A stretch of 64,000 nt of DNA from an uncultured Bacteroidales bacterium (GTDB lineage: Bacteria; Bacteroidota; Bacteroidia; Bacteroidales; Bacteroidaceae). The stretch's first letter is position 1. Each line of letters starts with the position of its first letter. Location: NCBI GenBank assembly GCA_902779165.1, contig CACZAN010000024.1, forward strand, positions 19,152 to 83,151. Reading direction: 5' to 3'. The notes beneath the pieces are model-generated. The model was given only the letters and a program-made list of their open reading frames with translations, was not told the origin of the DNA and made no database searches. The position numbers and the translations under genes are program-made. Shown in pieces: positions 4,583 to 52,038 of the stretch.

Positions 4583-4692
4583 GGTCGTAGGTGGCGATTC
4601 GTTAGGCCGTAGGCGGCGATACGTTAGGTCGTAGGCGGCGATACGTTAGGTCGTAGGCGGCGATACGTTAGGTCGTAGGCGGCAGAATATAA
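4583..4692. repeat. 22-bp tandem repeat array 1 (five units)
   Basis: Five head-to-tail units of exactly 22 bp at 4583, 4605, 4627, 4649 and 4671. Units 3 and 4 are identical, unit 2 differs by one base, unit 1 by two, and unit 5 is diverged in its second half; a partial sixth (GGTCGTAA) follows. The unit starts GGTCGTAGGCGGCGATACG and contains the inverted pair CGTA/TACG around an 8-base centre. No spacer sequences are present. Confidence 0.95.
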
Positions 4693-4820
4693 GGTCGTAA
4701 ACACCCTTGCGACCTAATATATTTAGGTCCTCAAAAATATGCAAGATGGGTCACGAAGATTGCAGATAAATGTTAAGATGCTTAAATCAGTCTAAAACCA
4801 CCCTTAAACTATTGGTCAAA

Positions 4821-4852
4821 TTTGGTGGTTTCGAAAAAAAGTCGTACTTTTG
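4821..4852 (+). promoter_or_regulatory. ftsY promoter (Bacteroidetes type)
   Basis: TTTG at 4821-4824, 20 bases, then TACTTTTG at 4845-4852. This fits the Bacteroidetes primary sigma consensus and implies transcription starting near 4858. It rules out the upstream TTG at 4850 as the ftsY start, because that codon lies inside the -7 element. Confidence 0.85.
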
Positions 4853-4873
4853 CACCGCAAAAATGAAATGAAT

Positions 4874-5839
4874 ATGGGATTCCTGAATTTCTTCTCCCGC
4901 AACAAGGAGCAACAGAAAGAGACGCTGGACCGCGGTCTCGAGAAAACCAAAGAGAGTTTCTTTGGTAAGCTGGCACGTGCCGTGGCTGGCAAGAGCAAGG
5001 TGGACGACGATGTGCTCGACGACCTCGAAGAGGTGCTTGTTACCTCCGACGTGGGCGTGGACACCACATTGAATATCATCCGTCGGATAGAAGAGCGCGT
5101 AGCACGCGACAAGTATGTGAGCACCAGTGAACTTCAGGCCATCCTCCGCGAAGAGATTGCAGCCCTGCTGACTGAGAACAACACCGGCGACACCGAAGGC
5201 TACCAGCTGCCCGAGGGCAAGCGCCCGTATGTCATTATGGTCGTGGGAGTCAACGGCGTAGGCAAGACCACCACCATTGGAAAACTCGCATGGCAGTTCA
5301 AGCAAGCGGGGCTGAAGGTGATGCTCGGCGCTGCCGACACGTTCCGTGCTGCCGCCGTGGAGCAGATCGTCATCTGGGGCCAACGCGTGGGAGTGCCCGT
5401 GGTGAAGCAGCAGATGGGCGCCGACCCTGCCAGCGTGGCTTTCGACACCCTCAGCAGTGCTGTTGCCAACGACGTCGACGTCGTACTCATCGACACCGCA
5501 GGGCGACTGCATAATAAGAAAGGCCTGATGGACGAGCTCTCGAAGATCAAGCGCGTGATGCAGAAGGTGGTGCCCGAGGCCCCGCACGATGTGATGCTGG
5601 TGCTCGACGGCAGCACGGGGCAGAACGCCTTCGAACAGGCTCGCCAGTTCACAGCTGCCACCGACGTCACCTCCATGGCTATCACCAAGCTCGATGGCAC
5701 GGCAAAGGGTGGGGTAGTGCTCGGCATCTCAGACCAGTTCAAGATTCCCGTCCGCTATATCGGACTCGGTGAAGGCATGGAAGATCTGCAGCCCTTCAAC
5801 CGCCGCGATTTCGTAAATAGCTTGTTCGGGGAGAAATAG
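4874..5839 (+). CDS. ftsY: Signal recognition particle receptor FtsY
   Basis: SRP-receptor GTPase that docks ribosome-nascent-chain complexes at the inner membrane. The 321-residue protein has the NG domain: G1 loop GVNGVGKTTT near residue 125, the ADTFRAAA segment, DTAGR near 206, and TKLDGTAKGG near 272. The N-terminal A domain is short, as is usual in Bacteroidetes, and starts MGFLNFFSRNKEQQKE. I chose ATG 4874 because homologs begin MGLF/MGFL and the promoter overlaps any earlier start; ATG 4868 (MNMGF) is the alternative. rimO follows after 65 bases. Confidence 0.96.
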   Translation: MGFLNFFSRNKEQQKETLDRGLEKTKESFFGKLARAVAGKSKVDDDVLDDLEEVLVTSDVGVDTTLNIIRRIEERVARDKYVSTSELQAILREEIAALLTENNTGDTEGYQLPEGKRPYVIMVVGVNGVGKTTTIGKLAWQFKQAGLKVMLGAADTFRAAAVEQIVIWGQRVGVPVVKQQMGADPASVAFDTLSSAVANDVDVVLIDTAGRLHNKKGLMDELSKIKRVMQKVVPEAPHDVMLVLDGSTGQNAFEQARQFTAATDVTSMAITKLDGTAKGGVVLGISDQFKIPVRYIGLGEGMEDLQPFNRRDFVNSLFGEK

Positions 5840-5904
5840 CCCCGCCCATCATCCTCCCTTTGAAGAAGAGGTGGTTGCCATCAAGAACAATATGATAAGT
5901 TAGT

Positions 5905-7368
5905 ATGACTCATTCCCCTAAAACAGTAAGACATTCTTCTCCCTCCAGAAAAGGAAGGGCAGGGAGTGGGTCTTCTATCGACATCCTCACTATGGGCTGT
6001 TCCAAGAACTTGGTGGACAGCGAGCGCCTGATGGCCCAGCTGCACCACGCCGGCTATCGGGTGCAGCACGACCCTGAAGTTTGTGAGGGAGACATCTGCA
6101 TCATCAACACCTGCGGTTTCATCGGCGACGCCAAGGAGGAAAGCATCAATATGATACTCCAGCAGGGACTGCGAAAGCAACTTCTGTCAAATACCCCGGC
6201 TCCAGCCCCCTCTTCGACGAGCCCTGTTGCTGGCGGTTCGTCCGCCAGCCCCCTCCGCCCCCTCCGCCGTCTCTACGTCATGGGGTGCCTCTCTCAGCGC
6301 TACCTCGAAGAGCTGCAGGCCGAAATCCCCGAAGTCGACGGCTGGTACGGCAAGTTCGACTGGCCTCGTCTGCTGGCTGACCTCGGCCACGCCTGGGACG
6401 ACGCCCTCACCCCCGGCCGCCTGCTCACCACCCCATCGCACTACGCCTATGTGAAGATCTCTGAGGGCTGCGACCGCCGCTGCTCCTACTGCGCCATCCC
6501 CCTCATCACCGGCCGTCACCAGAGCCGTCCGATGGAGGAAATACTCGATGAGGTGCGGCAGCTCGTGAAGCAGGGCGTAAAGGAGTTCAACATCATAGCC
6601 CAGGAACTCACTTATTACGGCATCGACCTTTACCACCGTCGTGCCATTGCCGAGCTCGTCGACCGCATGGCCAACATCGAAGGAGTATGCTGGATACGCC
6701 TGCACTACGGCTATCCCACAGACTTCCCTTGGGAGCTCTTGCAGGTGATGAACCGTCATGAGAACGTATGTCGCTACCTCGACATCGCACTGCAGCACAT
6801 CGCCGACCCCGTGCTCACCGCCATGCGCCGCCACATAACACGTCAGCAGACCTATGACTTCGTGGAACGCCTTCGTAACGAGGTGCCCGGAATCCACCTG
6901 CGTACCACCTTGATGGTCGGCCATCCAGGTGAGACGGAGGAAGCTTTCCAGGAGTTGCTCGACTTCACCCGTTGGGCTCGCTTCGAACGGATGGGCGCCT
7001 TTGCCTACAGCGAGGAAGAGGGCACTCATAGTGCTACTGCCTACTCCGACGACATCCCCGACGAGGTCAAGCAGGCCCGTCTGTCGAAACTCATGCGCAT
7101 CCAACAACGCATCTCCAACGAGGTTCAGGAAGCTAAGGTCGGCACCCTGCAACGTGTTATCATCGACCGCACAGAAGGTGATTACTACGTCGGACGCACT
7201 CAGTACGACTCTCCGGAAGTGGATCCCGAAGTGCTCATCCCCATCCAGGTCGAGGAGGGCACCTCTGAGGGTCAGACCCTCGGCGCCTCCCTCACCATAG
7301 GTCGCTTCTATGATGTCCGCATTACCTCGGCCGATGACTTCGACCTCTACGCTACACCCATCCGATAA
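5905..7368 (+). CDS. rimO: Ribosomal protein S12 methylthiotransferase RimO
   Basis: Radical-SAM enzyme that adds a methylthio group to an aspartate of ribosomal protein S12. The N-terminal cluster-binding cysteines are in MGCSKN (C32), INTCGF and VMGCLSQR; the radical SAM motif is C189-x3-C193-x2-C196 (CDRRCSYC); a TRAM-like domain closes the protein. At 487 residues it is about 50 longer than usual. Two low-complexity additions explain this: an N-terminal leader (residues about 11-24) encoded by a C/G-rich palindromic repeat, and an Ala/Pro/Ser insertion near residues 95-118 before LYVMGC, whose DNA includes the hairpin CTGGCGG-TTCGT-CCGCCAG. Catalytic residues are intact, so it should be functional. 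No in-frame start lies closer to the conserved region than ATG 5905. Confidence 0.95.
   Translation: MTHSPKTVRHSSPSRKGRAGSGSSIDILTMGCSKNLVDSERLMAQLHHAGYRVQHDPEVCEGDICIINTCGFIGDAKEESINMILQQGLRKQLLSNTPAPAPSSTSPVAGGSSASPLRPLRRLYVMGCLSQRYLEELQAEIPEVDGWYGKFDWPRLLADLGHAWDDALTPGRLLTTPSHYAYVKISEGCDRRCSYCAIPLITGRHQSRPMEEILDEVRQLVKQGVKEFNIIAQELTYYGIDLYHRRAIAELVDRMANIEGVCWIRLHYGYPTDFPWELLQVMNRHENVCRYLDIALQHIADPVLTAMRRHITRQQTYDFVERLRNEVPGIHLRTTLMVGHPGETEEAFQELLDFTRWARFERMGAFAYSEEEGTHSATAYSDDIPDEVKQARLSKLMRIQQRISNEVQEAKVGTLQRVIIDRTEGDYYVGRTQYDSPEVDPEVLIPIQVEEGTSEGQTLGASLTIGRFYDVRITSADDFDLYATPIR
5936..5974 (-). repeat. AGACCCA-type palindromic element inside rimO
   Basis: Read on the minus strand it starts AAGACCCACTCCCTGCCC, then CTTCCTTTTCTGGAGGG. 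The same layout occurs at 31491-31535 and at 44283-44336. Here the element is translated in rimO as SPSRKGRAGSGSS. Confidence 0.65.
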
Positions 7369-7394
7369 TTCAAATATAATAAATATATAACTGA

Positions 7395-7682
7395 ATGAAT
7401 CATAAAGAATTCATATCCGCCCTATCTCAGCAGACGGGTCTCACGGCAAAGCGCACACAGAGCATGGTCAGCAACTTGCTGGCCGAACTCACCGCACGCT
7501 TTGAGGAGGGCGATGCCCTACAAGTCCAGAACTTCGGCACTTTCGAGGTAAAGAAGAAAATGGAACGTATCATCGTCAATCCCTCTGGAGGACAACGCAT
7601 GCTGGTGCCCCCAAAACTCGCACTGGTCTTCAAACCGAGTGTTAACTTTAAAGAAAACATTCAGGAAGGAGGTGAACAGTAG
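7395..7682 (+). CDS. HU-family DNA-binding protein
   Basis: A 95-residue histone-like protein of normal HU/IHF length that bends DNA as a dimer. Seen: N-terminal helices with LTAKRTQSMVSNLLAEL, then the family signature VQNFGTFEVKKK, a beta arm carrying INPSG-like IVNPSGGQRM, and FKPSVNFKE at the end. It sits 26 bases after rimO and 2 bases before a second, much larger HU-type gene, so the two are probably co-translated and may pair. GGAGG at 7669-7673, inside its 3' end, could serve the next gene. Confidence 0.92.
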   Translation: MNHKEFISALSQQTGLTAKRTQSMVSNLLAELTARFEEGDALQVQNFGTFEVKKKMERIIVNPSGGQRMLVPPKLALVFKPSVNFKENIQEGGEQ

Positions 7683-7684
7683 CC

Positions 7685-8974
7685 GTGGATGCAAGATTCT
7701 CAATCATGGATTTGGCTCAGGCTATGGTGCGCCGTGCCAATGTCCCCTATGCAGATGCTGCAGCTTTCGTCCGTCAATTCTTCGAGACCATACAGGAAGC
7801 CTTGCTGCGTGATAAGATTGTCAAAGTACGTGGCTTCGGCACCTTCAAACTTATCAGCGTGGAGCCTCGGGAGAGTATCAGCGTAGCCGACGGTAGGCGC
7901 ATCCAGATTGCAGGCCACACCAAGGTCTCTTTCACACCCGATGCCGTTCTCCGCGATGCAGTAAACAAGCCCTTTGCAGAGTTCGAAACCGTTATACTTA
8001 GCGACAATCTCGACATCAATACTTTAGAAGCTCTGGATGCAGAGGTTCCTGCAGAAGAAGTCCCTGCAGAAGGAGTTTCTGTAGAAGAGGTTCTTTCAGA
8101 AGAAGTTTCTGTTCCAGTTGAAGTACTTCCGTCAGAAGAGGAACCGATAGTTCCAGAGGAAAAGGTTGAAGTTGAAGAAACCGTTGCTCCTGGTCCTGTG
8201 GAAGAACTTGTTGTTTCTCTGGATGAGGAGGAAACTGCTGATCCCATAGAAGGGGAAAAAGAGATTGAAACTTCTGAAGAAGAGGAAGAAGAATCCCCGA
8301 CTCCTGAACCAAAGGAAGGGTCCCCAGCCAAAACAGAAGAGCCCGTGGCTGTGAAAGTGGTTGAACCCGTTCCTGTAGTGGTGGTTGAGCCAGTCCCTAC
8401 AGGAGAATCTGACAAGGCTGAGAACGGAACCGAAGTGCCGGTGACTCCCTTGAGGAGCGAGACATCTCGCTCCTGTAGCTTCTGGCGCTGTTTCCTCGCT
8501 TTCTTCCTGGCATTGCTGCTCTTTATCGCGGGCTATTGTGTAGGTTATCTGCGGCCCGTTGAGCTGCCCTTCCTAACCGGACAGACCGAGCCAACAGTTT
8601 CCGGGCAGGCGCCTGCAAAACAGCCTTCGGCAAAACAACAGTCGGCAAGGAAGCCTGTTCCTGTTGCGTCCTCAGCCGCCAAAGACTCCATAGCGGCCAA
8701 GGCTGATTCCACAGTTGCTGCTAAGCCTGTCGATCCCGCTAAGGCTCCCTCCGAGACGCTCGCTTATCCGCAGGTCGAAGGAGGACAATACTGGATTATT
8801 GGAATCAAGGGCACCGAGATTATGAAACCCGGACGGACCCTCCTCAACTTCTCATTGAAATATTATAAGAGCAAGGACTTCGTAGAGTACATCTGTGTGA
8901 TGAACGATATTAAGAACCCAGATATCGTTCCTATCAACAAAGAACTCAAGATTCCTGAACTCCAGAAAAAATAA
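7685..8974 (+). CDS. HU-type domain fused to acidic linker, membrane segment and LysM-like domain
   Basis: A 429-residue composite protein. Residues 1-95 are an HU/IHF-like DNA-binding domain (VRGFGTFKLISVEPRES). Residues about 100-255 form a Glu/Val/Pro-rich, repeat-like acidic linker. A hydrophobic segment near 262-290 (FLAFFLALLLFIAGYCVGYL) should cross the inner membrane. An Ala/Lys/Pro linker leads to a C-terminal LysM-like domain near 355-429 (SLKYYKSKDFVEYICVMN, ending LKIPEL). The layout suggests a DNA-binding cytoplasmic head and a peptidoglycan-binding periplasmic tail, that is, a tether between nucleoid and wall; this role is inference. GTG 7685 is preferred over ATG 7706 because the FSIMDLA residues align with the start of HU domains and GGAGG lies 11 bases upstream. 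Confidence 0.85.
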   Translation: MDARFSIMDLAQAMVRRANVPYADAAAFVRQFFETIQEALLRDKIVKVRGFGTFKLISVEPRESISVADGRRIQIAGHTKVSFTPDAVLRDAVNKPFAEFETVILSDNLDINTLEALDAEVPAEEVPAEGVSVEEVLSEEVSVPVEVLPSEEEPIVPEEKVEVEETVAPGPVEELVVSLDEEETADPIEGEKEIETSEEEEEESPTPEPKEGSPAKTEEPVAVKVVEPVPVVVVEPVPTGESDKAENGTEVPVTPLRSETSRSCSFWRCFLAFFLALLLFIAGYCVGYLRPVELPFLTGQTEPTVSGQAPAKQPSAKQQSARKPVPVASSAAKDSIAAKADSTVAAKPVDPAKAPSETLAYPQVEGGQYWIIGIKGTEIMKPGRTLLNFSLKYYKSKDFVEYICVMNDIKNPDIVPINKELKIPELQKK

Positions 8975-9002
8975 CGTTAACTCTAAAAAATATACAACAA
9001 AA

Positions 9003-9998
9003 ATGGCAGAATCCATTGACATTCGCGAACTCAACGAGCGCATCGAGCGCCAGAGTGGTTTCGTCACCAACTTAATGACCGGTATGGATCAGGTCATCGT
9101 GGGACAGCGACACCTCGTAGAGTCCCTACTTATCGGCCTTCTCTCCGACGGCCACGTCCTCCTCGAAGGCGTCCCTGGTCTCGCAAAGACCCTCGCCATC
9201 AAGACTTTGGCGCAACTTATCGACGCAAAGTTCAGCCGCATTCAGTTTACCCCAGACCTGCTTCCTGCAGATGTCACCGGAACTATGATCTATTCTCAAA
9301 AGGACGAGAAGTTCATGGTCGAACAGGGGCCGGTCTTCGCTAACTTTGTCCTCGCCGACGAAATAAACCGTGCTCCCGCCAAGGTGCAGAGTGCTCTGCT
9401 CGAAGCCATGCAGGAGCGTGAGGTCACCATCGGAAAGCAGACCTTCCACCTGCCCTCGCCATTCCTCGTGCTGGCTACGCAGAACCCTATCGAACAGGAA
9501 GGCACATACCCACTGCCCGAGGCACAGGTAGACCGCTTCATGCTGAAGGTGGTCATCAGCTACCCAAAACTCGAAGAGGAGAAGCGCATCATTCGTCAGA
9601 ATATCGGAGGCGAGCGTACGGCTGTGCGTGCCGTCCTCTCTACAAAGGAGATTATGGAAGCACGAGAGGTTGTGCGTCAGGTTTATCTCGACGAGAAGAT
9701 TGAACAATATATCGCCGATATTGTATTCGCTACACGTTTCCCTGAAAACTACGGATTGAAAGAAATCAAGGACTTCATCGAATTCGGAGGATCGCCCCGT
9801 GCAAGCATCAACCTGGCACTCGCGGCTCGTGCCTACGCTTTCATCAAGCGACGTGGCTACGTCATTCCCGAGGATGTTCGTGCCGTTGCTCACGATGTGC
9901 TGCGCCATCGTATCGGGCTCACCTACGAAGCCGAGGCCAACAATGTCAGTGCCGACGAAATCGTCAGCAAGATTCTGAACAAGGTAGAAGTACCCTAA
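9003..9998 (+). CDS. MoxR-family AAA+ ATPase
   Basis: A 331-residue MoxR-type AAA+ chaperone ATPase, thought to mature VWA-domain complexes. Walker A is GVPGLAKT near residues 56-63, with the Leu-Ala-Lys-Thr variant usual in this family; Walker B and helix VLADEINRAPAKVQSALLEA lie near 113-132, sensor 1 is ATQNP, and the lid domain contains GGSPRASI. It is the first gene of the bat aerotolerance operon and precedes DUF58 and VWA genes, its usual partners. Its last bases and stop codon are tandemly duplicated just downstream (9980-10021). Confidence 0.95.
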   Translation: MAESIDIRELNERIERQSGFVTNLMTGMDQVIVGQRHLVESLLIGLLSDGHVLLEGVPGLAKTLAIKTLAQLIDAKFSRIQFTPDLLPADVTGTMIYSQKDEKFMVEQGPVFANFVLADEINRAPAKVQSALLEAMQEREVTIGKQTFHLPSPFLVLATQNPIEQEGTYPLPEAQVDRFMLKVVISYPKLEEEKRIIRQNIGGERTAVRAVLSTKEIMEAREVVRQVYLDEKIEQYIADIVFATRFPENYGLKEIKDFIEFGGSPRASINLALAARAYAFIKRRGYVIPEDVRAVAHDVLRHRIGLTYEAEANNVSADEIVSKILNKVEVP

Positions 9999-10021
9999 TT
10001 CAAGGTAGAAGTGCTCTAATT
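9980..10021. repeat. 21-bp tandem duplication at the moxR stop codon
   Basis: Two adjacent 21-bp copies, 9980-10000 and 10001-10021, both starting CAAGGTAGAAGT and ending CTAATT, with differences only in the centre. The moxR stop codon is in the first copy. It lies in the 129-base moxR-DUF58 spacer, which also holds the hairpin CCGCGAT-TCT-ATCGCGG (10083-10099). Confidence 0.85.
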
Positions 10022-10127
10022 TGACGATTTAAGGTTTTAAGGCCTGAGAAATTGGGGCCTCAAGAATTGTCCCGTTTCTTCCACCGCGATTCTATCGCGG
10101 CTCCCTGAAATCATAAAACATACAATC

Positions 10128-13127: not shown

Positions 13128-14882
13128 ATGTTCCGCTTCGAGAATCCCATATACCTCTATGCACTCGCAATCATTCCGCTGCTTGCGCTGCTGCATTATG
13201 GAACCAACATCCTGCGCCGCCGTCGCCTGAAAAAGTATGGCGACATGGAGTTACTGAAACCACTGATGCCCGACGTCTCACGCTGGCGTCCGGAAGTAAA
13301 GTTCTGGCTGGTGAACCTCGCACTGGCGATGATGATTGTCTGTCTCGCCCGTCCGCAATACGGTACGAAGATAGACACCCGCACTCGGAAAGGCATCGAA
13401 GCCATCATCGCACTCGATGTCTCCAACTCCATGCTGGCCGAGGATGTTACTCCCAGCCGTCTGGCCAAGTCCAAGATGCTCATTAGCAGCCTCGTGGACA
13501 ATATGGTGGACGACAAGGTTGGACTTATCGTCTATGCAGGCGAAGCCTACACCCAGCTGCCTATCACTTCAGACTACGTCTCGGCCAAGATGTTTCTCGA
13601 CAACATCTCGCCTGATATGATCGCCGTTCAGGGCACAGACATTGCCCGAGCTATCCGGCTTGCGACCCATAGCTTCACGCAACAGGAAGGCGTGGGAAGG
13701 GCCATCTTCGTCATCACCGACGGTGAGGACAACGAAGGCGGGGCTGTTGAAGCCGCTAAGGATGCCCTGAAGAAGGGGATGAATGTCTACGTACTTGGCG
13801 TAGGTTCACCTGAGGGAAGTCCGATCCCTATTCCTGGAGGTCGCGGCTACCTCACTGATAATTCTGGAAATACCGTAGTCTCTAAACTTAATGAAGAGAT
13901 GTGTCGAGAGATTGCTCAGGCCGGAGGAGGTGCATATATCTATGTAGACAACAGTTCTTCCGCTCAGGCCGCGCTACAGCGCCATGTCGACAAGCTTGCG
14001 AAGGCAGAGATGGAATCTGTACTCTACAGCGAATACGACGAGCACTTCGGCGACTTCGCCTGGGCAGCTCTGGTCCTCCTGCTCGTAGACCTCTTTATCC
14101 TTGCCCGTATGAACCATGTCTTCAGCCGAGTACGATTGTTCCGTGTTTCAGACAAGGGCGCAGCCCTGCTCCTTTTCCTCTTCTTCTCGCTGGGCACACC
14201 GGCACTCTTCAGCGACTCTTGTTCTGCCTATGCCCAGAAGAAGAACGACCGTTACTATGTGCGCCACGGTAACCGCTACTACCGCGACAGCCTCTACGCC
14301 AAGGCGCAGGTAGATTATCAGAAGGCAATAGAAAAGGATGCTTCGAACCCCACAGCTCACTACAACCTGGGCAATGCCTTCCTCTTTCAGGGTCAGCCTC
14401 AGGAGGCGATGAAAAACTATGAGAGCGCTATCCGCCTCGAAAAAGATCCGTTGCGACAGGCACAGGCTTACCACAATGCCGGTGTCATCTTCCAGAGTCA
14501 GCAGCAGTTCCAGCAGGCTATAGGATGTTATAAGAACGCTCTCCGCAAGAACCCCAAGGACGACGAGACACGCTATAACCTGGCCCTTTGTCAGCATCAG
14601 CTGAAGAACCAGCAGCAGAATCAGGACAACAACCAGGATCAGCAGCAACAGGACCAGCAGCAACAAGACCAACAGCAGCAACAACAAGACCAGCAGCAGC
14701 AACAACAGCAACAACAGCAACAACAAGACCAGCAGCAACAGCAGCAGGAACAGCCCAAGATGTCGCGTGAGAATGCTGAGCAGCTCCTGCAAGCCGCGCA
14801 GCAAGAGGAAAAACAGACGCAGGACAAGGTCAACAAAGCTCAGCAGAAACCTCAGCGTCGCCAGCTGCAGAAGCAATGGTAA
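13128..14882 (+). CDS. Fused BatB-BatC: VWA domain plus TPR and glutamine-rich tail
   Basis: One 584-residue frame joins two proteins that are normally separate. Residues 1-330 are BatB: two N-terminal membrane segments, VWA with MIDAS LDVSNS near 96, ITDGEDNEGG, and a membrane segment near 309-327. Residues about 343-363 (AALLLFLFFSLGTPALF, then SAYAQ) look like the old BatC signal peptide, now an internal membrane segment that would place the TPR part (about 370-490) in the periplasm. The tail at 491-543 is Gln/Asp rich, encoded by CAG/CAA repeats that could slip. No start codon or stop separates the halves. A missed stop by sequencing error is possible, but the frame is clean throughout. 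Confidence 0.9.
   Translation: MFRFENPIYLYALAIIPLLALLHYGTNILRRRRLKKYGDMELLKPLMPDVSRWRPEVKFWLVNLALAMMIVCLARPQYGTKIDTRTRKGIEAIIALDVSNSMLAEDVTPSRLAKSKMLISSLVDNMVDDKVGLIVYAGEAYTQLPITSDYVSAKMFLDNISPDMIAVQGTDIARAIRLATHSFTQQEGVGRAIFVITDGEDNEGGAVEAAKDALKKGMNVYVLGVGSPEGSPIPIPGGRGYLTDNSGNTVVSKLNEEMCREIAQAGGGAYIYVDNSSSAQAALQRHVDKLAKAEMESVLYSEYDEHFGDFAWAALVLLLVDLFILARMNHVFSRVRLFRVSDKGAALLLFLFFSLGTPALFSDSCSAYAQKKNDRYYVRHGNRYYRDSLYAKAQVDYQKAIEKDASNPTAHYNLGNAFLFQGQPQEAMKNYESAIRLEKDPLRQAQAYHNAGVIFQSQQQFQQAIGCYKNALRKNPKDDETRYNLALCQHQLKNQQQNQDNNQDQQQQDQQQQDQQQQQQDQQQQQQQQQQQQDQQQQQQEQPKMSRENAEQLLQAAQQEEKQTQDKVNKAQQKPQRRQLQKQW
14610..14755. repeat. CAG/CAA microsatellite coding poly-Gln/Asp in batB-batC
   Basis: A run of CAG, CAA and GAC/GAT codons, almost pure glutamine broken by single aspartates. 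A length change that is not a multiple of three would alter only the protein's last few dozen residues. Mixed CAG/CAA usage should dampen slippage. Confidence 0.85.
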
Positions 14883-14896
14883 TAGGCCGTTTGGTC

Positions 14897-14984
14897 GAGT
14901 TCCACTGCTGGAACTGGCGAGTTCCACTGCTGGAACTCACGAATTCCACTGCTGGAACTCACGAATTCCACTGCTGGAACTCGC
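14897..14984. repeat. 22-bp tandem repeat array 2 (four units)
   Basis: Four exact 22-bp units at 14897, 14919, 14941 and 14963, in the 200-base spacer between batB-batC and batD. Each unit holds a hairpin: GAGTTCCA-CTGC-TGGAACTC in the second unit, GAATTCCA in the third and fourth. Differences between units are one or two bases. Confidence 0.95.
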
Positions 14985-23119: not shown

Positions 23120-24106
23120 ATGAGAAACCTGAAGTCCATAGCAGTCCTGTGCATCGTGGCGGTGCTTGTGTCCTGCAAGCCCCCCTTGCCCGACGGTGTG
23201 CTCTCTGAAAGCAAAATGGAGCGCGTGCTCTATGATTTCCATCTCTCGCAGGGGATGGTGGAGTATGCACCGCGCGCAGAGGGACAGGACTATGACGCAG
23301 TGCGCTTTGAACTTCAGCAGGCCGTGTTCCGCAAGCATGGTATCACGCAGGAAGACTTCGACCGATCCATGTCCTATTATCTCAGCGACATGGATCATCT
23401 GGCAAAAATGTACAAGCGGGTTGCCGACCGCTTGGAGCGCGATGCCGAGGCACTGGGTGTAGCCGCAGGACCGCGCGATGCCTATGCCGCACTGACCGCT
23501 GAAGGCGACACTGCCAACGTTTGGGCCGACCGCCGCATCTTTGTCGTCCGCAACGCCCAGCAGTCCAACTTCCAGATGTGGAAACTGCCCTGTGACTCCA
23601 CGTGGCTGCCCGGCGACGACCTGTTGTGGCGCTTCGAACTCAAGCAGATTACACAGTCTTATGGTCCTGGCGACCTCTTCGCAGACCTCGTTATCTACTT
23701 CACCAACGACTCCGTCGTCAGCCGCCTCGTCAGCGTGGGCGACAAGAAGGATGTCGAGCTGCGCATCGACAACCCTGACAGATTGTTGCCGCGTTCCGTC
23801 AGCGGACACCTCTTCACTCCTGTAGAAACCGACCCTACACGTGCACGCATGTACGTGATATATGCACCCGCGCTTATACGTTTTCATAAGGAGCAATCCG
23901 ATCTCGCTGCCGACAGCCTTGCTGCCGACAGCCTCCTGGCCGATTCCCTCCGGTTCCGCACCGATACCCTACAGCAGCGACTCACACCTGAGCAGCGTCG
24001 CGAGCGTCAGGACGTAGAGCGCACTATTGATGTCGTGCGCGAGAAACCATATCAGGCACCGCGTAGGGGAGGGAAGAAGCGTTTCACCCAGCCACGCCGC
24101 CGATAA
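23120..24106 (+). CDS. DUF4296-domain lipoprotein
   Basis: A 328-residue predicted lipoprotein: signal peptide with lipobox LVSC (Cys19). The N-terminal part (about 25-110) fits the DUF4296 family (MERVLYDFHLSQGMVEYA), found in Bacteroidetes and of unknown function. Near residue 265 a short repeat AADSLAADSLLADSL occurs, and the C-terminus is very basic (PRRGGKKRFTQPRRR). It lies 19 bases after lspA and ends the ileS operon or continues into the small gene after it. Confidence 0.85.
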   Translation: MRNLKSIAVLCIVAVLVSCKPPLPDGVLSESKMERVLYDFHLSQGMVEYAPRAEGQDYDAVRFELQQAVFRKHGITQEDFDRSMSYYLSDMDHLAKMYKRVADRLERDAEALGVAAGPRDAYAALTAEGDTANVWADRRIFVVRNAQQSNFQMWKLPCDSTWLPGDDLLWRFELKQITQSYGPGDLFADLVIYFTNDSVVSRLVSVGDKKDVELRIDNPDRLLPRSVSGHLFTPVETDPTRARMYVIYAPALIRFHKEQSDLAADSLAADSLLADSLRFRTDTLQQRLTPEQRRERQDVERTIDVVREKPYQAPRRGGKKRFTQPRRR

Positions 24107-24132
24107 GAACATGCCTCTACGCTGATAACGCC

Positions 24133-24357
24133 ATGCCTCTACGCGCCTACCACCGCCTCATACTCCCCGACGGCACCACCCAATCCCTCTCCGTAGTCCG
24201 CTTCGACGATGCGGGCCGCTATCTCAGCCATCACCCTTTATCGGGCGAAGAACCCTTCGTGGAATGGGTGGGAGGATCGCTCGATTTGCGAACAGACATC
24301 ACTTCTTTCCCTCCGGTAACTCCTATCGATGATTTATATCAAGAAAAAAAGCCCTGA
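24133..24357 (+). CDS. Small hypothetical protein (74 residues)
   Basis: A compact 74-residue reading frame 26 bases after the DUF4296 gene. It has balanced, protein-like composition (MPLRAYHRLILPDGTTQSL; SGEEPFVEWVGGSLDL) and no membrane segment. I do not recognise a family. Genome-like codon choice and co-orientation support a real gene. It ends just before an A-rich region carrying the galE promoter. Confidence 0.65.
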   Translation: MPLRAYHRLILPDGTTQSLSVVRFDDAGRYLSHHPLSGEEPFVEWVGGSLDLRTDITSFPPVTPIDDLYQEKKP

Positions 24358-27703: not shown

Positions 27704-27769
27704 AATAAGACGTCACGTCTTCCTGAATAAGACGTCACGTCCTCCACGATATGACGTATCGTCTTCCAT
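27704..27769. repeat. 22-bp tandem repeat array 3 (three units)
   Basis: Three units of 22 bp at 27704, 27726 and 27748. The first contains the inverted repeat AAGACGT-C-ACGTCTT; the third GACG-TAT-CGTC. The reverse complement of the second unit shares 19 of 22 bases with units of array 5, about 24 kb away. Confidence 0.9.
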
Positions 27770-27927
27770 GATAGGCCGGGACATCTGAGCCTGCCGCTCC
27801 TTCTTTTCTTTCTCTTAATAGCCCGACAAATGTGCATTCTGGGGTGTGGGCGGGGCTTTTTGCGGTTCGTTATCAGCGTTTTCCGAAGAAAATGGGGGAG
27901 AAGTGCGGTTATCTCGTTTTTTTGTTG

Positions 27928-46676: not shown

Positions 46677-46677
46677 C

Positions 46678-47388
46678 TTAGTGCTTCTGACCTTTTTGTC
46701 CGTAATAAGCGTTAGGACCATGCTTACGCATGTAGTGCTTCTCAACCAGCAGCGGGTTCATTGTCAGGTTAGGGTTCACCGAGAAAGCCACGAAAGCCAT
46801 CTTGGCACACTGCTCCATAACCTTGGCATTATACACGGCGTTGTCAGGAGAGGTACCCCATGAGAAGGGGCCGTGGTTCTTGACCAGAACGGCGGGAGTG
46901 TGGTCGGGGTTGATTTTGCGGATGTTAAGGATCTCGTCCACGATGACGTTGCCCGTTTCCAGTTCATACTGTCCCTTTACCTCAGCCTCGGTCATGTCGC
47001 GCGTGCAGGGGATATCCTGATAGAAGTAGTCGGCATGGGTGGTGCCGATATTCGGGATGTCGCGACCAGCCTGTGCGAAGGCTGTGGCATAGGTGGAGTG
47101 GGTGTGAACCACGCCTTGAATGTTGGGGAACGCCTTGTAGAGGACCAGGTGGGTGGGTGTGTCGCTGCTGGGGTTGAGGTCACCCTCAACCACTTTTCCG
47201 CTTTCGAGGTCCACAACGACAATATCGCTGGCCTTCATCTCGTCGTAGCTGACGCCCGAAGGTTTGATGACAACGAGTCCTTTTTCGCGATCGATGCCTG
47301 AGACATTGCCCCAGGTGAAGATGACCAGTCCCTGCTTCACTAAGTCAAGGTTGGCCTTGAATACTTTTTGTTTCAGTTCTTCTAACAT
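46678..47388 (-). CDS. araD: L-ribulose-5-phosphate 4-epimerase
   Basis: Zinc enzyme that converts L-ribulose-5-phosphate to D-xylulose-5-phosphate. The 236-residue protein shows class II aldolase-like motifs: [37 protein letters not shown], the zinc ligands in [16 protein letters not shown], the aspartate in TTHADYF, and KNHGPFSWG near the C-terminal third. All expected catalytic positions appear intact. It lies 55 bases after araR and 1 base before the 118-residue gene. Confidence 0.96.
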
Positions 47389-47443
47389 GAGTCTTATGAG
47401 TTAATGAGTTTATGGGTCATTTATATATAGGTGTAGCAAATAG

Positions 47444-48124
47444 TCAGAGTTTGAAGTGGCCGTCACGCTGATAGGCAGTATTGTTGAACCTATAGAGTGC
47501 AGCCCCGCGTTTCGATGTTCTCTTATCGATCTCATCGGTTTTCTCGATGAACGTCATCTCAGCCACGCGCTTGCGGAAGTTGCGCTTGTCGATGTTTTCG
47601 CCAATGATGGCTTCATAGAGCATCTGCAGCTGGGTGAGGGTGAATAGGGGGGGCAGGAGTTGAAATCCTACGGGTCGCTTCGACACACGTTCCCGCAGCA
47701 TCGTCAGAGCACGTTGCACCATCTCCTTGTGGTCGAAAAGCAACTTGGGCAGTGTGGAGAGATCCTCCCAGTAGGCCGAGTGCTCGCGATTGCGTTCCTT
47801 GTCAACGCGATCAATGTCAAGCAGGGCAAAATAGGCGACAGAGATAACGCGGTCGCCGGAGTCGCGGTTGACGCTGCCGAAAGCGCCCACTTGTTTCATA
47901 TAGACATTCTTCAGGCCCGTCAGTTCAGTCAGAACGCGGGCTGCTGCATCATCAACGTCCTCGTCGCTATTGACGAAGCCGCCCATCAGCGACCATTCAC
48001 CAGCGTGGGGCTCGAATGGTCGCTGTTGTAGAAGTACTTTCAATAGACCGTTTTTGAAGCCGAAGATGATACAGTCGACAGCTACGTGGAATTTTGGGTA
48101 TTGTTGATAAAAGGTGGATGACAT
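47444..48124 (-). CDS. araR: NUDIX-type transcriptional regulator AraR
   Basis: A 226-residue regulator of the NrtR/AraR type: a NUDIX-like ligand-binding domain (residues about 10-145) plus a C-terminal winged helix (about 155-226; LTQLQMLYEAIIGENIDKRN). The NUDIX box is degenerate: around GGFVNSDEDVDDAAARVL the REx2EE catalytic glutamates are missing, consistent with a sensor rather than a hydrolase. In Bacteroides such a protein represses arabinose genes and responds to L-arabinose; here that is inferred from operon membership. The symporter gene lies upstream, the gap holding an AT-rich inverted repeat. Confidence 0.92.
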   Translation of the reverse strand: MSSTFYQQYPKFHVAVDCIIFGFKNGLLKVLLQQRPFEPHAGEWSLMGGFVNSDEDVDDAAARVLTELTGLKNVYMKQVGAFGSVNRDSGDRVISVAYFALLDIDRVDKERNREHSAYWEDLSTLPKLLFDHKEMVQRALTMLRERVSKRPVGFQLLPPLFTLTQLQMLYEAIIGENIDKRNFRKRVAEMTFIEKTDEIDKRTSKRGAALYRFNNTAYQRDGHFKL

Positions 48125-48145
48125 GGGTGTTGAGATTTTTAAATA

Positions 48146-48261
48146 ATGTATAATTGATAATGTATATAATTGATAATGTATAATGTATAATTATGGGGGG
48201 ACGCGGGCTTCTTGTTTGCAGGCGCAGCTCAATTATCAATTATACATTATCAATTATACAT
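48146..48261. repeat. AT-rich inverted repeat between the symporter and araR genes
   Basis: A left arm from 48146 (ATGTATAATTGATAATG) and right arm 48230-48261 are nearly perfect inverted copies, the left with a 2-base insertion. The loop (about 50 bases) is G/C richer. Together they occupy most of the 149-base gap. Confidence 0.85.
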
Positions 48262-48273
48262 CAAGAGAGTATA

Positions 48274-50019
48274 TTACCAGAAGTACCAGTAGAACGTAGC
48301 GCAGAGACCAATGACGGCCAGGGTTCCGATGACATCCCAAACGCCCCAGCTCTCCTTGATGGACTTCTTGAAGTCGGCGGAGAAGGTGATGGCGTCGACC
48401 TGTTCTTTCGAGGGCGCGGGAGTGAAGAAGCTGACAACCACCATCAACAGGATGATGAATACCAGCAGCCAGCACTCGAAGATGAGCCAGTTGGTCTGCC
48501 AGAACCAAGCTGTGTTCTCCCAGAATGCGCCATCCATGACGGCCTTGCCAGAGTCTGTGAGGACATTAGTCAGCAGGCGTATCATGCCGATGACGAAACC
48601 GCCGATGAGACCCCATTCACCAGCCTTCGGCGTAATCTTCTTCGAGAAGATACCCAGTGTGAAGACGGCAACCATAGCGGGAGCAATCAGCGACTGGATG
48701 TCCTGGAGGTAGCTGTAGAGGTTGCCCATGTTCATCATAATAGGCATCCAAGCCAGACCGAGCAGCACAACAACGACGGTAGCGGTGCGGCCTACGAAGA
48801 CGTAGTGAGCTTCGCTCTTGCCCTTCTTCATGGGCTTGTAGAAGTCTTCGGTGAAGAGGGTGGCGCAGCTGTTGAAGAAGGCTGCCAGCGAGGCGACGAG
48901 CGCGCAGACGAAACCGATGGTCACGATACCCTTGATACCTGCAGGCAGGATGTTCTTCACCATCATGGCGAAGGCGCCGTCGGTGGACTCGTGGTTGGTA
49001 ATGTCCATCTCGATTCCGCTGCCGGCCTTCAGGGAGAGGGCGTAGGCTATCATACCAGGGATGAGGAACATGAATACGGGGAGCAGCTTGAAGAAACCGG
49101 CTGCGATGGTGCCGCGGCGGGCGCGCTTCATCACTTCCTTGTTGTCTTCGCCGGGCACTTGTCCGAGCACACGCTGAACGATGTGCTGGTCAGTACACCA
49201 GTACCAGAAACCGATAATCGAAGCACCGAGGAAGACTACGTAGCCCGGGAACTGAGGATACATGGGATCATCTGGATTGGGATGGAACATGTGGGTGGTG
49301 CCGAAGCCGTCGTGAGCTTCATTGCAAACACGCATCATCTCTGCCCAACCAGCGGTGATGCTGCCGTCGCCGAGCATGCTCAGACCCAAGAACAGGACGA
49401 GGAAAGAACCTATAATAAGAATAGGTGTCTGGATCGTAGAAAGCGTCATCACACCCTTCATACCGCCGAAGACGGTGAATACGGCGGTGATGGCTATCAG
49501 ACCGATGGCTCCATACCAGAAGGGAATGCCCAGCAGGTACTTGAAGAAGATACCACCCGTGAAGGCGGTCACGCTGACCTTCGTTAGCACGTAGGCCACA
49601 AGGGTGATGATGCTGAGCCACGAACCCGTGCGCTGGGTGTAGCGGAACTTCAGGAAGTCGGGCATGGTGATAATCTTGCCCATCTTGTTGATCAGCAGCT
49701 GATAGAAGGGAACGAACAGCCAGCCGAGGATGAGGATCATCCAGCCCTGCATCTCCCAGTGAGCCATGCCCACGCCGTCCTTGGCACCTGTGCCGGCCAG
49801 GCCTACGAGGTGCTCGGAACCGATATTGGCAGCAAAGATGGCCATACCGATGACGTACCAGGGTTCGCCCTTACCAAAGAGGTAAGCCGAAGAGTCTTCT
49901 CCCTTCTGTGACTTCTTGTCTTTCCAGATGGCGTACCATACGGCAGCAACCACGCCTAAGAGGCCGACGGCGAGTACCACCCAGTCGAGCCAAATGAATT
50001 CATGTGAACTCCAATTCAT
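48274..50019 (-). CDS. Sodium:solute symporter, probable arabinose transporter
   Basis: A 581-residue SSS-family inner-membrane symporter with about 14 hydrophobic segments. Visible landmarks are GKGEPWYVIGMAIFAANIGSE (the SSS signature), LVGLAGTGAKDG, FRYTQRTGSWLSI and QRVLGQVPGEDN. Its place between galM and araR makes L-arabinose the likely substrate (AraP type); glucose or galactose are possible for this family. Start ATG 50019 lies 53 bases after galM. Confidence 0.92.
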   Translation of the reverse strand: MNWSSHEFIWLDWVVLAVGLLGVVAAVWYAIWKDKKSQKGEDSSAYLFGKGEPWYVIGMAIFAANIGSEHLVGLAGTGAKDGVGMAHWEMQGWMILILGWLFVPFYQLLINKMGKIITMPDFLKFRYTQRTGSWLSIITLVAYVLTKVSVTAFTGGIFFKYLLGIPFWYGAIGLIAITAVFTVFGGMKGVMTLSTIQTPILIIGSFLVLFLGLSMLGDGSITAGWAEMMRVCNEAHDGFGTTHMFHPNPDDPMYPQFPGYVVFLGASIIGFWYWCTDQHIVQRVLGQVPGEDNKEVMKRARRGTIAAGFFKLLPVFMFLIPGMIAYALSLKAGSGIEMDITNHESTDGAFAMMVKNILPAGIKGIVTIGFVCALVASLAAFFNSCATLFTEDFYKPMKKGKSEAHYVFVGRTATVVVVLLGLAWMPIMMNMGNLYSYLQDIQSLIAPAMVAVFTLGIFSKKITPKAGEWGLIGGFVIGMIRLLTNVLTDSGKAVMDGAFWENTAWFWQTNWLIFECWLLVFIILLMVVVSFFTPAPSKEQVDAITFSADFKKSIKESWGVWDVIGTLAVIGLCATFYWYFW

Positions 50020-50072
50020 AGTTGTATTATACGATTTTATGATTATGTGATTTCCAATTCTTTACTTCCGGC

Positions 50073-51236
50073 TTACTTCACGCTGAACTTATAAGCGCAG
50101 TGACTGGTGTAGGTTTCGCCGGGATTGAGGTATGCGTTGGGCCAACCTTCGAGGCCAGCCTTGTTGGGGCTGTCGGGGTACTTCTGTGTCTCTAAGCAGA
50201 TGGCAGCGTGCTGGTTGTAGGTGATACCCTTCTTACCCACAGCTGTGCCATCGAGGAAGTTGCCGCTGTAGACCTGAATACCGGGCTCGTCGGTGAAGAC
50301 CTCCATCAGGATGCCTGTCTCGGGGCTGTAGATGCTGGCTGCCACCTGGGTGTCGTCGCCCTGGGTGTTCAAGCACCAGTTGTGGTCGAAGCCGTTGCCG
50401 TTCTTGATCTGCTCGAACTCGAAGTTCTTGATGTCCTGACCCACGGCGTGCGGCTGGCGGAAGTCCATGGGAGTGCCCTCTACGGGAGCAATCTCGCCTG
50501 TCGTCATGAAGGTGGAGTCCACGGGAGTGTAGTTGTCGGCGTTCACATAGAGTTCATGATTCGTGATGGGCTGTGTGGGGTCGCCGTTGAGGTTGAAGTA
50601 GCTGTGGTTCGTCATGTTGATGACGGTGGGAGCGTTCGTTGTGGCCTCGTAGCAGATGTCCAGTGTGTTGTCATCGGTTAGCATGTAGCTGACAACGGCC
50701 GTCACTTCGCCCGGGAAGTTGTTATCACCATCGGGGCTCACCAGCTTCAGCTGCAGCGTGCTCTCTGTGACGTCCACCACGTCATAGACCTTGTACTGCC
50801 AGCCTTGGGGACCTCCGTGCAGGCAATGTCCGAAATTGTTCTTCGGCAGCTGGATTTCCTGTCCTTCTACCGTAATCTTGCCCTGAGCGATGCGGTTGGC
50901 ATAGCGGCCGATAGCGGCGCCGAAGTCGCTGGGATGTTTCACATTGTCCATGAAGGTGGCTACGTTGTCGAAACCGAGCACCACATCCTTCATCTCGCCC
51001 TTGTTGTCGGGCACCATGATGCTGACCACGCGTCCGCCGAAGTTGGTGATGCAAACTTCCATTCCGTTGCTGTTTGTCAGCGTGTAGAGCTGCGTGCCAG
51101 CCACGCTGTCCACAAACTGTTCGGGGTTCAGACCACTCAGTGTGGTCACCGCTTCAGCCTTCTTTGGCTGGGTGCATGCAGAGAGCATGACCAGTGCAGC
51201 GCTTGCTGCGAGCATTCCTTTCGTAAAAGCGTTCAT
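50073..51236 (-). CDS. galM: Aldose 1-epimerase (mutarotase), lipoprotein
   Basis: Interconverts alpha and beta anomers of sugars. The 387-residue protein starts with a lipoprotein signal (LVMLSAC, Cys at about residue 21), so it acts at the envelope, probably in the periplasm. GalM motifs: NFGGRVVSIMVPD, IGRYANRIAQG, the catalytic His in MTNHSYFNLNGD and the catalytic Glu in AICLETQKYPDSPN. As first gene of the arabinose operon it likely acts on L-arabinose before uptake. Confidence 0.94.
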   Translation of the reverse strand: MNAFTKGMLAASAALVMLSACTQPKKAEAVTTLSGLNPEQFVDSVAGTQLYTLTNSNGMEVCITNFGGRVVSIMVPDNKGEMKDVVLGFDNVATFMDNVKHPSDFGAAIGRYANRIAQGKITVEGQEIQLPKNNFGHCLHGGPQGWQYKVYDVVDVTESTLQLKLVSPDGDNNFPGEVTAVVSYMLTDDNTLDICYEATTNAPTVINMTNHSYFNLNGDPTQPITNHELYVNADNYTPVDSTFMTTGEIAPVEGTPMDFRQPHAVGQDIKNFEFEQIKNGNGFDHNWCLNTQGDDTQVAASIYSPETGILMEVFTDEPGIQVYSGNFLDGTAVGKKGITYNQHAAICLETQKYPDSPNKAGLEGWPNAYLNPGETYTSHCAYKFSVK

Positions 51237-51322
51237 TGTTCTTAATAGAGATTAAATGTTTGTATGGGGATTTTTTATTTCTTTTTGGGCCGTTTTGGGC
51301 ACTTTTTCTTCAAATTTGCCCT

Positions 51323-51363
51323 CAAAGATACTACTTTTTTTTATTAGTTGGTGTCTCTGACAC
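51323..51363 (-). promoter_or_regulatory. Arabinose operon promoter with candidate AraR operator
   Basis: On the minus strand TATCTTTG (51330-51323) is a good -7 element, 87 bases before galM. No clear TTTG lies at -33; instead the perfect palindrome GTGTC-TCT-GACAC occupies 51351-51363, just where polymerase would contact the -33 region. A regulator bound there would be well placed to control the operon. That it is the AraR site is inference. Confidence 0.55.
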
Positions 51364-51538
51364 ACTTTTTTTTCATGAAATCCCTATTTTTTAAGAAAAA
51401 GTAGAGATTTTCGTTCCTTTTCAGTCCCCCTTACATGCAAATAACCGTCACAGATTCTCTTTTTGTCTTTCACTTTGGCCTCTCAGCGACTTTTCTTCAT
51501 CGTCTTTCGCCTCTCAACGACTTTTTCTTCACCGAAAA

Positions 51539-51570
51539 TTTGCAAGTATCGCAAGAAAGCCCTACCTTTG
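51539..51570 (+). promoter_or_regulatory. tRNA-Pro promoter (Bacteroidetes type)
   Basis: TTTG at 51539-51542, 20 bases, TACCTTTG at 51563-51570, 11 bases before the tRNA 5' end. Confidence 0.88.
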
Positions 51571-51581
51571 CACCCGCAAAT

Positions 51582-51654
51582 CGGGGTGTAGCGCAGTTGG
51601 TAGCGTTCCTGGTTTGGGACCAGGCGGTCGCCCGTTCGAGTCGGGTCGCCCCGA
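51582..51654 (+). tRNA. tRNA-Pro (anticodon UGG)
   Basis: 73 bases forming a cloverleaf. Acceptor arms CGGGGTG (51582-51588) and CGCCCCG (51647-51653) with discriminator A at 51654. The anticodon stem-loop is CCTGG-TTTGGGA-CCAGG with TGG as anticodon. The T arm has GTTCGAG. CCA is not encoded. One tRNA alone, with its own promoter and terminator. Confidence 0.95.
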
Positions 51655-51670
51655 CGATTTATGCAATGAA

Positions 51671-51714
51671 GAAGGAGAAGCCCCTCGTGAGAGTCGCTCT
51701 CCTTCGTTTTTTTT
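51671..51714 (+). terminator. Rho-independent terminator of tRNA-Pro
   Basis: Stem GAAGGAGA (51671-51678) with TCTCCTTC (51698-51705), 19-base loop, then G and a run of eight T (51707-51714). Confidence 0.88.
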
Positions 51715-51723
51715 GTGCCTGCA

Positions 51724-51789
51724 CTTCGTCGTGCAACAAACTATAGTTCGTCGTGCAACAAACTATAGTTACTTCGACGACAAACTATA
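51724..51789. repeat. 22-bp tandem repeat array 4 (three units)
   Basis: Units at 51724, 51746 and 51768. The first two differ at one base; the third is diverged in its first half. Units end CAAACTATA, and at the unit junctions AACTATAGTT forms a perfect palindrome. Confidence 0.92.
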
Positions 51790-51818
51790 CTTTGTTTTTT
51801 TCCAGACGTGAGGGTGAA

Positions 51819-52038
51819 GATGTATATACGTAAAGGCCGAGATGTATATACGTAAAGGCTGAGATGTATATACGTGAAGACGGAGACCTATATACGTGAA
51901 GACGGAGATGTATATACGTGAAGGTCGTGACGTCCTTTCGTGGAGGACGTGACGGATTATGGTGGAGGACGTGACGGATTATGGTGGAGGGCGTGACGGA
52001 TTATGGTGAAAGACGTGACGGATTACGGCGAAAGAGGT
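51819..52038. repeat. 22-bp tandem repeat array 5 (ten units, two sequence types)
   Basis: Ten units in unbroken 22-bp register from 51819. Units 1-5 have a GATGTATATACGT half; units 7-10 have a GACGGATTATGGT half; unit 6 (GACGTCCTTTCGTGGAGGAC...) is a bridge. One half of the unit (GTGAAGACG or GTGGAGGACGT) stays similar across both types while the other half switches. Array 3 shares 19 of 22 bases with units 7-8, in reverse orientation. Confidence 0.93.

Follow-up and report, generated by a model that had tools for sequence, protein, structure and literature searches.

Intergenic 22-bp arrays in a rumen Bacteroidaceae genome as candidate binding sites of BT4734-VapE primase-helicases

We describe here a set of intergenic tandem arrays with a 22-bp period in a 64,000-nucleotide stretch of DNA (the window; G000:C24:19152-83151, contig CACZAN010000024.1) from the genome of an uncultured Bacteroidaceae/Prevotellaceae bacterium of the rumen. 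The genome, G000, is a metagenome-assembled genome (MAG) of 3.59 Mb in 75 contigs, estimated to be 86% complete. The nearest RimO relatives that carry a name are for the most part rumen MAGs labelled Bacteroidaceae, Prevotellaceae or Bacteroidales, UBA4372 among them, and the genus is probably that around UBA4372. In this species, in two others of the same genus, and in Bacteroides finegoldii and Parabacteroides distasonis, the unit of an array that lies upstream of a BT4734-VapE gene is also the unit of dispersed arrays. A species-specific repeat before a primase-helicase gene in five genomes suggests a bacterial system of a reader plus scattered sites, built on a replication enzyme. Our proposal, to which we attach a probability of about 0.57 from sequence comparison, is that the arrays are dyad-symmetric binding sites, phased at two helical turns, of a BT4734-VapE protein, and that they are kept in the chromosome as a dispersed non-autonomous population. 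The partner protein, referred to below as the reader, would consist of an archaeo-eukaryotic primase (AEP) domain fused to a VapE-like helicase, with a variable DUF3874-type end.

A common period for unrelated units

Tandem Repeats Finder (TRF) was used to locate repeats in the window. It gives period-22 arrays at all of the places listed by a first-pass annotation of this DNA, which was thus right about the exact period. There are six strong arrays (Table 1), because the last one reported, at 51819-52038, has the period of 22 bp but is two blocks with different units and not one array. At a TRF score of at least 60, 40 dinucleotide-preserving shuffles of the window yielded no array with a period of 22 or 44 bp, and the real window yielded 7. 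When the arrays are written in rows of 22 the units align, the motif centres being 22 bp apart within each block, and 38 and 37 bp apart across the block borders (the third motif is not dyad-centred). The annotation also assigned an inverted repeat to every unit, which is true only in part. Clear dyad cores are present in B (GAGTTCCA/TGGAACTC), C (GACGT/ACGTC), D (AACTATAGTT) and E1 (ATGTATATACGT), whereas the dyads of A and E2 are weak. The E2 unit contains AGGACG, with CGTCCT present in one row only. A whole-circle shuffle test of the dyads gave p<0.05 for D alone (0.0375), with 0.13-0.18 for B, C and E1, 0.89 for A and 0.985 for E2.

The period is not peculiar to the window. Forty stretches of 20 kb, taken from contig starts and mid-parts, were added to it to give a sample of 864 kb, with open reading frames (ORFs) called by a longest-ORF heuristic. 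In the intergenic part of this sample TRF counts 31 arrays with a 22-bp period, and no other period between 17 and 26 bp reaches more than 6. A distribution lacking a peak at 22 bp, which had been named beforehand as grounds for rejection, did not appear. Elsewhere in the genus, 22 bp accounts for 13 of the 16 intergenic arrays of G012 (154 kb), 8 of 21 in G017 and 8 of 37 in G016; G003 has 3 at 22 bp and 5 at 21 bp. Loci around RimO contain 7 period-22 arrays in 24 genus loci and 2 in 56 outgroup loci (985 kb), and arrays per intergenic kb differ between the home genome and the outgroup at p = 4e-7. In a lag count that does not use TRF, runs at lag 22 number 79 in the home genome (median 5) and 32 in G012 (median 0); the outgroup has 10 runs at lag 22, a number not above those at lags 14 and 18. 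The 22-bp peak is thus present in genomes of the same genus, less clear in G003, and rare in outgroup loci. Dyads go with it, with p<0.05 against shuffles for 31% of 72 period-22 units and 0-12% at periods 14-21; the figure for period 24 is 27% of 11 units.

These counts bear on the explanation that the arrays are minisatellites produced by neutral slippage and that their period is accidental. Copy number is indeed variable, the end units are degenerate, and arrays with shorter periods (7-9, 11 and 14 bp) are common too. What makes slippage very improbable to us is that one period is held over unrelated sequences and several genera, that there is an excess of dyads, that arrays end on whole palindromes, and that their units are matched to one gene family. 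The short-period arrays of the home intergenic sample number 9, 11, 8, 7 and 7 at 7, 8, 9, 11 and 14 bp, an example being the ACTCCGAAC repeats near T1 arrays.

Within the home genome, several families of unit recur at tens of dispersed places. Two AACTATAGTT cores 22 bp apart (family T1, array D), with up to 3 mismatches, match 53 times, overlapping pairs included (control 0), and AGTTCCACTGCTGGAACT of family T2 (array B), within 3 mismatches, matches 60 times forward and 66 times in reverse (controls 1 and 3). Cores no more than 70 bp apart in the sample are spaced at 22 bp in 12/12 cases for T1, 17/18 for T3 and 7/9 for T4, the rest being at 44. The T2 unit occurs at about 25 places in the genome, 20 of them read as arrays; the reading began with 26 groups, of which 5 were dropped as chance, and the remaining 21 are 20 places, one array having been counted twice, once as a copy cut off where a stretch ended. 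The T2 half-sites alternate at 12 bp (78 times) and 10 bp (61 times), counts that include the chance and duplicate groups, with N4 and N2 variable. All 20 arrays start with a GAGTTCCA-type and finish with a TGGAACTC-type half-site once two distant chance matches are set aside.

Half-sites are thus conserved and centres variable. Over whole units of three families, Watson-Crick pairs do not exceed expectation (z -5.3, -0.9 and -7.8; the 140 fuzzy T2 matches used in this test include a small number that are not array units). Since the arms do not compensate for one another, we take a dimeric DNA-binding protein to be a better fit than hairpins in RNA, and a two-turn step that stays fixed while the sequences are unrelated suggests the geometry of a protein. 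We picture the arrays as probable rows of DNA binding sites, with two inverted half-sites in each 22-bp step, so that successive sites, two turns apart, would all face one side of the helix. The first-pass annotation had suggested one mechanism that makes or reads the arrays, such as a protein bound on one DNA face every two turns. This interpretation is supported in part: both the single mechanism and the bound protein fit the genome-wide peak, the conserved half-sites with variable centres and no compensatory pairing, the whole-palindrome arrays and the recurrent link to one protein family.

On the covariation result we also reject selection for RNA hairpins over whole units. A role in RNA, with tandem hairpins acting as terminators, attenuators or mRNA stabilisers, nevertheless has points in its favour: array B starts 14 bp past a stop codon, several units can fold, convergent gaps hold 11 of 25 home arrays (39 of 202 among all gaps of at least 100 bp), the arrays of G002 have flanks of the AAGCCCC/GGGGCTT kind, and in G002 three of eight arm positions pair slightly more often than in shuffles (p<0.01). 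The excess in convergent gaps arises partly because some gaps hold several arrays. Against it, besides the whole-unit pairing result, there is hardly any room for a loop in the T1 and T3 cores, divergent gaps contain arrays too, and an Rfam scan of the window had no match except the tRNA. We consider an RNA role quite improbable.

By type of gap, home arrays number 11 in tandem, 11 in convergent and 3 in divergent gaps, compared with 120, 39 and 43 such gaps of at least 100 bp. On these counts we reject a strict promoter or terminator placement. Nor do the arrays have a common neighbour family, the only clusters among 144 flanking ORFs being bat (6 and 6), ftsY (3) and four pairs. Array A lies on the upstream side of the ORF that neighbours RimO; of 25 near relatives, 5 have 22-bp arrays in this gap, with different units, and a further three have 23-bp repeats there. 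The bat gap, the site of array B, is about 12-60 bp in seven species of the genus and has arrays with other units in five others. Given this variation of the bat and ftsY gaps among species, the arrays look like dispensable additions.

Candidate readers and their units

BT4734-like_N domains (PF08800) are found in 27 of 41 genus genomes, with 57 matches and 0 to 5 copies per genome, and 30 of the 57 loci were fetched. For 11 of the 30, TRF identifies a 22-bp array on the 5' side at a distance of up to about 1.5 kb; on the 3' side it identifies none. Leaving out the gene on contig C25 that prompted the test, the 5' count is 10 of 29. For ordinary ORFs the figures are 51/896 upstream and 65/896 downstream. 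The 5' association has a Fisher p of 1e-6, which is overstated because orthologues are included.

Units differ between readers, and in three genomes searched whole the reader's unit recurs at other places. The T2 unit upstream of the C25 reader is the unit dispersed in the home genome. In G002 there is one PF08800 match, with a 97-bp array that recurs as 63 matches at 35 places, its own included; the 20 arrays read are mostly three palindromes framed by CCTAGG, and the array in the ftsY gap of G002, on a contig identified by its equal length, is one of the dispersed copies. G018 likewise has one PF08800 match; with 40 of 81 candidates scored, its 212-bp array matches 43 times at 40 places. The flanks of 20 loci each in G002 and G018 have common sequence that is patchy and mostly away from the array, so that the array itself is what these places have in common. 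The dispersed G002 arrays often have AAGCCCC/GGGGCTT or CATCCCC/GGGGATG as a frame at their ends, the choice at one end apparently independent of that at the other; these frames resemble the foot of a terminator.

The association extends beyond the genus. A collection of plasmid records contains 71 with a relative, and the best 5 of the 71 were examined; those of B. finegoldii and P. distasonis are contigs labelled as plasmids that carry housekeeping genes. TRF finds a palindromic 22-bp array just upstream of three of the five BT4734/BF3469 genes (two in B. finegoldii, one in P. distasonis), and none upstream of those of Bacteroides sp. CACC 737 and B. uniformis. Counting the reader's own record in each case, the P. 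distasonis array matches 10 records, all P. distasonis; the first B. finegoldii array matches 7 (6 B. finegoldii, 1 P. distasonis) and the second 3, all B. finegoldii. Eight of the dispersed regions were read: the four of P. distasonis have a TRF period of 22 or 44 bp, and in the six B. finegoldii regions counted (dispersed ones plus the two readers) cores are 22 or 44 bp apart, with one spacing of 57.

The reader is low in copy number and vertically inherited at one chromosomal site: of the 30 lpxD loci fetched, 8 have a BT4734-VapE gene directly upstream of the lpxD-like gene, and five of the 30 have less than 1 kb upstream. (The names lpxD, lpxC, pyrF and ftsY are what we take these genes to be from their sequences.) Six of the lpxD-site readers are 45-59% identical in protein sequence, and five of the seven readable ones have an upstream array, those without being G010 and the home copy. 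Among readers the helicase core is conserved, and the N-terminal half and the C-terminal region are the most variable, as expected if specificity changes. The variable C-terminus could, at a guess, be the DNA-binding part. A change in reader specificity would then drive turnover of the unit sequence, and the geometry of the protein would keep the 22-bp beat. NCBIfam gave PrimPol matches for two of six proteins, weak and well below the curated cut-off, and a search of the PDB by sequence gave one weak VapE-like match.

Another arrangement is seen on C25, where an element has the order DUF6078-like ORF, T2 array, reader gene. The ORF (2674-3111 of stretch G000:C25:95001-103782) is 26% identical to a P. 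distasonis DUF6078 protein (E 3e-20), and P. distasonis has the same order of DUF6078, array and reader. The reader gene encodes 703 aa with a BT4734-like_N (PF08800) and a VapE-like (PF05272) domain, the former scoring 75.1 bits against a curated cut-off of 22.4; four more readers also exceed the PF08800 cut-off. Rows of 22 hold one register from the array to the start of the gene, though the unit changes twice. T2 places lie within 1 kb of TTGCAGTAGATT end sites in 11 of the 25 tested, a set that does not cover all places in the genome and has some short flanks, and two more element copies (C20, C27) fall outside it. A 601-bp piece of one copy matches 89 pieces in the home genome, arrays included. 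In this one lineage, arrays would ride in deletion derivatives of a small reader-carrying mobile element, similar to miniature inverted-repeat transposable elements (MITEs).

The C25 element ends lie near 2386-2512, 5503-5629 and 8395-8522 of the same stretch. They are about 130 bp long and inverted, each with three TTGCAGTAGATT-type sites spaced at 46 and 30 bp and often a tip containing CGCGCGCG. The third copy of the end encloses RhuM and KilA-N genes and a fragment of the reader gene. In G003 (stretch L356, 2270-2500), two copies of a 22-bp palindrome, GTTTTCCAACCAGTTGGAAAAC, lie 44 bp apart and were missed by TRF; the pair sits between an ORF resembling the DUF6078 type and a BT4734-VapE gene.

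Weighing the proposal

If BT4734-VapE proteins do bind the arrays, an origin or iteron role is natural for this class of AEP primase plus helicase, and the array upstream of the gene would be a replication origin, an operator, or both. Arrays of the same unit across the chromosome would form a non-autonomous population, perhaps spread by the reader, like REPINs served by a single-copy RAYT (repetitive extragenic palindromic (REP) doublets forming hairpins, and REP-associated tyrosine transposases). A bolder version makes this a widespread Bacteroidales counterpart of RAYT/REPIN, in which a domesticated primase-helicase would own and propagate genome-wide populations of phased palindromic arrays, specificity and sequence turning over together with 22 bp kept. 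To this version we give slightly less than an even chance.

Several results count against the proposal. TRF finds no array at 19 of the 30 BT4734_N loci; the home reader upstream of lpxD has none, and neither does the reader locus fetched from G017, though the G017 sample has 8 with other units. G012 (13 arrays) and G005 and G024 (arrays at bat) gave no PF05272 match, and G012 and G024 no PF08800 match either, all of them incomplete MAGs. In 190 kb of G003 the units of its readers have no match, and in 220 kb of G016 the reader unit has one weak match only; unit identity is therefore seen in three genomes searched whole and not in two searched in part. Lags 14, 21 and 28 exceed lag 22 in G003, the dispersed-array borders inspected in G002 and G018 have no terminal repeat or target duplication in common beyond the array, and the weak-dyad units A and E2 fit poorly. 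Of the window arrays only B has an identified candidate reader, with none established for A, T1, T3, T4 and E2. Cores like those of T1, T3 and T4 are found upstream of a VapE-DUF3874 gene on C18, and could be there by chance, such cores being abundant.

The search for a parent gene of T1 gave one stretch with a T1 and a T3 core upstream of a VapE gene and one that had been fetched for its T1 array; the rest had no T1. C-terminal similarity among readers gave no pointer to a T1 reader. A stand-alone BT4734-type gene (G000:C15:55500-59460, 2245-3340), located after one for an AAA ATPase, has a T4 array starting at its stop codon; that this gene is the reader of the array C family, T4, is a suggestion only. 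Two other BT4734_N operons have a 16-bp array (L340 3867-3959) and a 20-bp array (L342 4208-4280) nearby, and other periods may belong to other primase families.

The arrays could instead be sites of a chromosome-organising or regulatory DNA-binding protein of the host, which BT4734-VapE genes merely borrow as operators. This would account for arrays in tandem, convergent and divergent gaps, for arrays in genomes where no reader was detected, and for the fact that bat and ftsY gaps repeatedly hold arrays whose units differ. Unrelated units that coexist in one genome and differ between close species are odd for one conserved protein, however; many species have no arrays at bat and ftsY, and the reader link is on the 5' side and, in genomes searched whole, unit-matched, across several genera. 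We regard the host-protein explanation as unlikely.

Extragenic, palindromic, dispersed and species-specific families are also what ordinary REP sequences and bacterial interspersed mosaic elements (BIMEs) would look like, spread by a Y1 (RAYT/TnpA-REP) transposase. Of 26 genus genomes, nearly all of them incomplete MAGs, 5 have the Y1 domain PF01797 above its cut-off; it was not found in G002, G016, G018 and G012, which are array-rich and incomplete, and the strongest home copy has no array in its 3.3-kb locus. On this distribution we reject RAYT as a general cause and give a REP/BIME origin only a slight chance. Carriage by phages was also rejected: 18 viral-contig stretches fitted a pattern, and no relative was encoded in any of them, only close relatives being within reach of this search.

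The likeness of the proposed system to RAYT/REPIN lies in the low-copy, vertically inherited reader and in dispersed extragenic copies that equal the repeat beside it (in the home genome, G002, G018, B. finegoldii and P. distasonis). The passages of PMC8049555 on RAYT/REPIN describe a vertically inherited reader with matching repeats beside it and tens of extragenic palindromic copies, and repeats that persist in genomes without RAYT. The reader here differs in being a BT4734 primase with a VapE helicase and not a Y1 HUH transposase, and the units differ in running head to tail at exactly 22 bp with no sign of whole-unit hairpin selection. They also differ from CRISPR arrays, since they have no unique spacers and in T2 only N4 and N2 vary freely.

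Plasmid iteron/Rep origins have tandem sites of about two turns upstream of the gene for the replication protein. Tandem direct repeats upstream of an initiator-type gene are likewise found here (at 11/30 genus loci and 3/5 in Bacteroides and Parabacteroides), with the differences that reader and arrays are chromosomal, that arrays by the tens are found at a distance from the gene, and that the origin role is a prediction.

The first-pass annotation raised a relation to the BrickBuilt elements of Porphyromonas gingivalis. The two are alike in having intergenic tandem repeats, some inside a MITE, T2 lying within a MITE-like element at 11/25 places. BrickBuilt is described in the relevant passages of PMC4596501 as a 23-nt repeat in one MITE family, and 22-nt repeats are mentioned there for P. 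gingivalis W83. The arrays here have a period of 22, many units, no MITE ends at over half of the T2 places and a tie to a gene family, and the 23-nt repeat with conserved leader and tail that characterises BrickBuilt is not seen. Such a relation is not borne out, and P. gingivalis is ruled out as the source of the DNA, the genome being a Bacteroidaceae/Prevotellaceae MAG from the rumen.

Readers have the same domains, PF08800 and PF05272, as the BT4734-like AEP primases and the VirE/VapE helicase domains of mobile elements. The BT4734-like family is placed in the AEP superfamily in the passages seen of PMC5862659 and PMC8065100; those passages mention no associated repeat arrays, and 'iteron' occurs 0 times in PMC5862659. 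A literature search over titles and the starts of abstracts, with thin coverage of subscription papers, found no description of a link between 22-bp arrays and BT4734-VapE genes, which is weak evidence of novelty. BT4734/BF3469-type genes, present in the 27 genus genomes and in cultured Bacteroides and Parabacteroides, are described in the passages at hand only as an AEP clade. If each reader owns phased sites throughout its genome, a class of intergenic DNA gains a partner, testable in cultured Bacteroides. Sequence populations within genomes need then not depend on transposases, a replication enzyme would be driving a selfish or domesticated chromosomal sequence population, and there would be a natural series of reader-site pairs in which to study how DNA-binding specificity evolves.

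Arrays of the window and their surroundings

The window arrays sit between likely genes. Among mechanically called ORFs of at least 100 aa, an antisense one (14148-14927, minus strand) extends into array B and a doubtful one (51435-51746) into array D. The ORF at 4850-5839, downstream of array A, is presumably FtsY. The weak duplication in the last row of Table 1 is not counted as a member of the set.

Table 1. Positions of the 22-bp repeats in the window
Feature	Position	Strand	Repeat	Context
Array A	4560..4699	.	unit AGGTCGTAGGCGGCGATACGTT, about 4.6 good copies plus degenerate ends; TRF core 4582-4683	upstream of ORF 4850-5839
Array B (family T2)	14896..14982	.	four palindromes GAGTTCCA-N4-TGGAACTC, N2 between	gap between BatA/VWA/TPR-domain gene and BatD-domain gene
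Array C (family T4)	27705..27773	.	three copies, core GACGT-N-ACGTC	between DUF4838 gene and ABC ATPase gene
Array D (family T1)	51725..51789	.	three copies, core AACTATAGTT	adjoins tRNA-Pro 51582-51655
Array E1 (family T3)	51806..51924	.	five copies, ATGTATATACGT-like core	
Array E2	51940..52046	.	unit GGACGTGACGGATTATGGTGGA, about five copies, weak dyad	
Weak duplication	24098..24144		two copies, 22 bp; TRF score 66	overlaps ORF end

A CAG-rich repeat at 14640-14754 of the window corresponds to a Q-rich tract near the end of the BatA/VWA/TPR gene, and its repeats vary among relatives.

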